From contig CAMCOS010000007.1 in assembly GCA_945876565.1 (NCBI GenBank), forward strand, positions 1-64,000: a stretch of DNA of 64,000 bases. The letters run 5' to 3'. This DNA is from Lautropia mirabilis. GTDB lineage: Bacteria > Pseudomonadota > Gammaproteobacteria > Burkholderiales > Burkholderiaceae_B. Shown here piece by piece: positions 48,259 to 50,007 of the stretch. Each line of letters begins with the position of its first letter. The first letter of the stretch is position 1. Below the pieces are notes generated by a model. That model did not search any database. It saw nothing but the letters and a program-made list of their open reading frames with translations, and was not told the DNA's origin. Both the position numbers and the translations under genes were made by a program.

Positions 48259-50007
<1,749 letters not shown>

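Follow-up and report, generated by a model that had tools for sequence, protein, structure and literature searches.

A conserved run of nine adenines as a probable RNA polymerase slippage site in dnaX of Lautropia mirabilis and relatives in its order

The window analysed here, a stretch of 64,000 nucleotides from Lautropia mirabilis (contig CAMCOS010000007.1, positions 1 to 64,000), carries dnaX on the minus strand from 50007 to 48259 as a single open reading frame of 582 aa, which corresponds to full-length tau. The domains recognised in its product (Pfam/NCBIfam) are DNA_pol3_delta2, the ATPase lid, DNA_pol3_gamma3 (aa 233-359) and tau domain V (aa 446-558). Two ORFs 3′ of the gene (47272-48209, minus strand) resemble recR and ybaB by eye and fit the arrangement dnaX-ybaB-recR, which we take to be the usual gene order. 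The features at the level of genes and domains are:

48259-50007, minus strand: dnaX, DNA polymerase III gamma/tau, with tau of 582 aa (ORF; TIGR02397 dnaX_nterm, E = 6.6e-124)
48334-48672, minus strand: the tau-only, alpha-binding domain V, aa 446-558, not in the truncated products (Pfam DNA_pol3_tau_5, E = 5.2e-10)
50071-50168, minus strand: SRP RNA (ffs), upstream of dnaX, given as context only (Rfam RF00169, 75.2 bits)

Codons 373-378 of dnaX read GCT GAA AAA AAA ACT CTA (A E K K T L), and the A run within them begins 15 codons beyond clamp-loader domain III. A preliminary description of the window had claimed nine consecutive A's in codons 374-377, nearby stops in both shifted frames (TGA in the -1 frame, TAA in the +1 frame) and a position at the end of the clamp-loader core. 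All of this is borne out: the run occupies 48887-48879 on the coding strand, aa 359 is the last residue of domain III, and the shifted frames end as EKKNSND-TGA and EKKL-TAA, with TAA after one codon and TGA after four. The features around the run are:

48879-48887, minus strand: A9 slippery run in codons 374-377, starting at codon position 2 (G/AA AAA AAA A/CT in the coding strand), kept in the genus and the order
48877-48892, minus strand: extended motif GGCTG-A9-CT, the same in genus relatives and in the distant families f47 and f49
48873-48875, minus strand: TAA reached when one A is lost (or two are gained), giving by translation a 377-aa product with the end EKKL; the position is kept as TGA, TAA or TAG in relatives
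48866-48868, minus strand: TGA reached after gain of one A (or a -1 ribosomal shift), giving by translation a 380-aa product with the end EKKNSND
48866-50007, minus strand: predicted gamma-like product of domains I-III and a short tail (domain III runs to aa 359, and the chain stops at 377 or 380), production being conjectural
48838-48866, minus strand: hairpin 12 nt 3′ of the run (folding; MFE -17.7 kcal/mol, z = -5.2), of uncertain role, not conserved and absent from the closest relatives

In composition the predicted 377- and 380-aa products match gamma: they end 18-21 residues past domain III and are without domain V.

The window has no second A9 (shuffling leads one to expect 0.77), and pattern searches of the 2.82-Mb genome returned 14 A9 and 68 exact A8. 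An excess of A9 in the genome was considered and rejected, the 14 being about what the 68 A8 would lead one to expect. Because of these expectations for window and genome, the rarity of A9 is no argument; a lone A9 is not improbable, and it is the conservation of this one that is.

Within the genus, for which nine genomes were compared with the window's own included, A9 stands at the same place and in the same phase of dnaX in seven (the window's own, G006, G007, G001, G002, G008 and G005), and G003 and G004 have no A9 run in the gene. Six of these seven genes read GCT GAA AAA AAA AC[T/C] CT; the seventh, that of G005, reads CCA CAA AAA AAA AGT, so that the run is kept and the residues differ. 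The more diverged members of the genus are only 31-44% identical at four-fold degenerate sites, synonymous sites are saturated, and of 40 invariant alanines only 2 have the same codon throughout the five species compared. Outside AEKKTL the linker defies alignment, yet the AEKK codons are identical in all five species. Identical codons amid saturated silent sites argue for a constraint on the nucleotides, beyond that on the protein.

The order was sampled with 202 distinct dnaX genes, 36 of which have A9 or A10 in the hinge. In 30 of the 36 runs the first A is at codon position 2, within codons 340-500, and in one further run it is at codon 521. Most families of the order show no A9/A10 run in the hinge of these 202 genes, and on a tree of the N-terminal part of dnaX the trait needs 16 changes (gains or losses), at least 12 of them on starred branches alone. 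The GC-rich family f49, sampled with one genome per genus (31 genes, gene GC 0.54-0.72), has exactly A9 at codons 372-388 in 21 genes. The f49 gene L348 reads AGGCTGAAAAAAAAACTCTGACGC, and those 24 bases are identical to the sequence of G006 of the window's genus. The motif GGCT-[G/C]-A9-CT recurs in genus relatives and in the distant families f47 and f49, with flanks kept at silent positions. Five genes (L027, L149, L213, L244 and L334) keep A9 with different flanking residues and sometimes in different phases. A class-level sample of 26 readable dnaX genes contained no run of A9 or longer and one A8.

The lengths of the runs are sharply distributed. In the hinges of the order there are 23 runs of A5, three each of A6 and A7, two of A8, 26 of A9, seven of A10 and none of A11, and in f49 one A7, no A8, 21 A9 and no A10; the conserved core of dnaX in the order set has no run of nine or more A's. 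Synonymous resampling within each gene (100 trials) gave 6.2 runs of at least nine, with a maximum of 12, and 33 are seen. The lysines of the run are all encoded by AAA, though AAA usage is 7-58% in most f49 genes, and with the codon usage of each gene taken into account the log10 probability of this is about -22, both for the order and for f49. The Ala codon preceding the run is GCT in 16 of 20 cases, where 2.9 are expected. These codon and length statistics count genes as independent and are uncorrected for relatedness, which makes them too optimistic; on the tree, though, the trait arises or disappears many times.

Stops follow the run closely in both shifted frames. The first stop comes at a median of two codons in the -1 frame and three in the +1 frame, the corresponding distances elsewhere in the same linkers being 14 and 20. 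Among the 57 genes with A9 or A10, an immediate stop is found in the +1 frame in 31 and in the -1 frame in 12. The nearest stop in f49 and in the window's genus is that of the +1 frame, and Oxalobacteraceae-like genes and f50 have an immediate -1 stop. The +1 stop in f49 is mostly formed as CTC TGA; where the next codon starts with G the rare Leu codon CTA is used, making TAG (L343, L354), and in L354 the CTA beside the run is the only one among 69 Leu codons. In the window, CTA-A makes TAA in the frame reached by losing an A. Since the frame with one A lost is closed by TGA, TAA or TAG in turn, it is the stop itself that is kept.

Comparison among relatives thus strongly supports a slippage site that would truncate DnaX after the clamp-loader core. 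We propose that the dnaX A9 is probably a programmed RNA polymerase slippage site, by which one gene would give both tau and gamma-like proteins. RNA polymerase would realign on the nine template T's and yield dnaX mRNAs whose A count varies (A8, A9, A10, A11 and so on). Those in which it is nine (or 9+3n) would be read through to tau of 582 aa. Any other count would bring a stop in one to five codons, and the resulting gamma-like protein (377 or 380 aa) would have the clamp-loading domains I-III but not the polymerase-binding domain V. Nine A's are about the length of the RNA-DNA hybrid. Slippage by the polymerase needs nine A's and stops in both frames to be kept, as in Thermus (PMC1088944). 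That slippage takes place in the host, its rate, and that gamma accumulates and is used there, we infer from the sequence comparison. The lack of the run in G003, G004 and most families of the order tells against this reading.

A different agent, programmed -1 ribosomal frameshifting on A_AAA_AAA by tandem tRNA-Lys slippage or poly-A sliding, with a faithful RNA polymerase, would also make gamma; we consider it improbable, yet the best of the alternatives. A_AAA_AAA does lie in the zero frame within the run and is itself somewhat shift-prone, -1 stops are near (immediate in the Oxalobacteraceae-like genes and f50), and the only tRNA-Lys type found in the genome was, as in E. coli, tRNA-Lys(UUU), with one such gene and no CUU gene among the tRNAs read. 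The much shiftier form in E. coli, A_AAA_AAG (PMC5009743), is however not the one conserved, the window having A_AAA_AAA followed by ACT. The preliminary description had found no E. coli-type heptamer with a 3′ stem. Its first half holds, A_AAA_AAG being absent, but a strong hairpin, which could help a -1 shift, does lie at 48866-48838, at a distance from the run (12 nt) that is more than usual. This hairpin is unshared by the closest relatives, the 50 nt downstream of the run in 36 genes show no consistent structure and no shared 3′ stem, and no Shine-Dalgarno-like element at the E. coli spacing is present within 25 nt upstream of the run. A 3′ stem and an upstream SD as shared stimulators were therefore rejected. 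For a -1 ribosomal shift seven A's would be enough and the +1 stop would be idle, whereas nine are kept and the immediate stop that f49 and the window's genus conserve belongs to the +1 frame, into which such a shift does not lead. RNA polymerase slippage is favoured over E. coli-type -1 frameshifting because there is neither an SD-like element nor a shared 3′ stem and because in the window's genus and f49 it is the +1 frame that closes first. The exact A9, the stops in both frames and the lack of conserved stimulators in this way support the Thermus-type mechanism that the preliminary description had offered as the better guess, as the favoured but not the proven one. Some ribosomal sliding on A_AAA_AAA may contribute.

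Selection for a protein motif A-E/Q-K-K-T in the linker (for binding, for example), with the A run as a by-product of lysine codons, is very unlikely. AEKKT is kept in the genus and Ala-Glu/Gln-Lys-Lys recurs elsewhere, but the runs are AAA AAA without exception, also in genes that prefer AAG, the bias toward GCT in the preceding Ala codon has no place in such a reading, the five genes named above hold A9 with other residues at its flanks, and the evidence from run length and stops is left unexplained. A fortuitous homopolymer without function in a tolerant linker, whose rare slipped products are noise, would agree with the ordinary number of A9 in the genome and with a linker that tolerates Lys, but is scarcely credible given the conservation in genus and order, the sharp peak of lengths, the stops in both frames and the switching of stop codons.

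Other arrangements of dnaX were seen in the sample. The gene of L254 (G031, a 1.7-Mb low-GC genome of the window's family) is a two-ORF dnaX with a zero frame of 384 aa, and tau (518 aa, with domain V) is reached only after one added A at a hinge A9 at codon 377. This reverse arrangement within the window's family also speaks for slippage at the A9. In six f19 genes (L235, L241, L251, L323, L325 and L390; genera g47 and g117) the zero frame closes after 443-473 aa, and domain V of tau follows at once in the +1 frame; GGGGAGA stands just before the stop in all six, exactly as GGGGAGAG TGA in three. This suggests, from the reading frames, an inverted dnaX in g47 and g117, with tau requiring a +1 shift; other f19 genera have a single-ORF dnaX. 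L387 and L388, from one f19 genus, have a hinge A10 in phase 2 (codons 455 and 443, respectively), and each shifted frame is closed 2-5 codons on. Further along dnaX, four genes (L161, L213, L218 and L244) have another slippery site: an A8 or A9 in a different phase with TTTGA behind it, where Phe-Asp is encoded and a -1 stop arises. Hinges without an A run contain G8 in L079, L158, L175 and L347, C8 in L054 and L169, and C9 in L380, which are possibly other slippage tracts. Near codon 486 of L027 (G005) a one-base frame break at a G5 run parts domain V from the rest; it is probably an assembly error, or else a real indel, and the A9 of this gene is untouched.

A bolder reading, which we put forward as a tentative and rather doubtful one, is that GGCT-[G/C]-A9-CT may be an old sequence-specific RNA polymerase slippage element of this betaproteobacterial order, its flanks setting the rate, and that the hinge may be an evolutionary hot spot. 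The dnaX hinge would then have passed between slippage, ribosomal frameshifting of the -1 type and inverted arrangements (-1 as well as +1), since it is important that the tau:gamma ratio be fixed.

The need for gamma has been debated, and if a large part of a betaproteobacterial order keeps a selected slippage site, gamma must matter there; the carriers include GC-rich species, where A9 is costly. If this is true, the role of gamma becomes testable in many cultured species. According to a review, most bacteria beyond enterobacteria and Thermus are without dnaX frameshift signatures and may make no gamma (PMC3290774). Truncation-type slippage has also been called difficult to predict from sequence comparison (PMC1088944); the present case would show that one can tell it by the exact length of the run together with stops in both frames and conservation at silent sites.

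The dnaX frameshift cases in the papers cited here are those of Thermus, enterobacteria, Neisseria, Vibrio and some two-ORF genes (PMC5009743, PMC3711429, PMC1088944, PMC3290774). A literature search for dnaX slippage in Burkholderiales or Taylorella found no paper, and the literature searched names nothing in the window's group beyond Neisseria; novelty is claimed within that literature. In Caulobacter gamma comes from proteolysis of tau (as cited in PMC5009743); two DnaX forms likewise arise from one gene, but by a protease and without a slippery sequence. Two-ORF dnaX genes with poly-A in the hinge, for which slippage has been proposed, are known from GeneTack clusters (Antonov et al. 2013, PMC3711429); there tau needs a shift at the poly-A, whereas here the zero frame encodes it. 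E. coli dnaX uses -1 ribosomal frameshifting on A_AAA_AAG, which a 3′ stem and an upstream SD-like element stimulate (PMC5009743, PMC3711429). The window's site is in the same gene, for the same purpose and at a similar place past domain III, but it has A9 in place of that heptamer, no SD-like element and no conserved stem (only the window's own hairpin, which its closest relatives do not have), and its +1-frame stops are conserved as well.

The closest counterpart, and so far the main known case of one dnaX giving a long and a short protein in this way, is Thermus thermophilus dnaX, with transcriptional slippage on A9 and stops in both frames (Larsen et al. 2000, as reported in PMC5009743 and PMC1088944). 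As there, nine sense-strand A's lie within a single-ORF dnaX, close stops are found in both shifted frames, and the truncated product, predicted here, retains clamp-loader domains I-III; the run is also conserved beyond the need of the protein. The lineages are unrelated, the conserved extended flanking motif is particular to the present case, and Thermus has two tRNA-Lys where the window's genome apparently has one. Further marks of the Thermus type are mRNAs of varied A count (A8, A10, A11 and so on) and the presence of both tau and gamma at about 1:1, whereas slippage in the window's dnaX is a prediction from its sequence. We assign the site to the Thermus type because every Thermus feature that sequence can test is present and two of the three E. 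coli-type features (heptamer and SD-like stimulator) are absent. The dnaX A9 would accordingly be a Thermus-like slippage site that is new and unexpectedly widespread, with an extended motif as yet unexplained.
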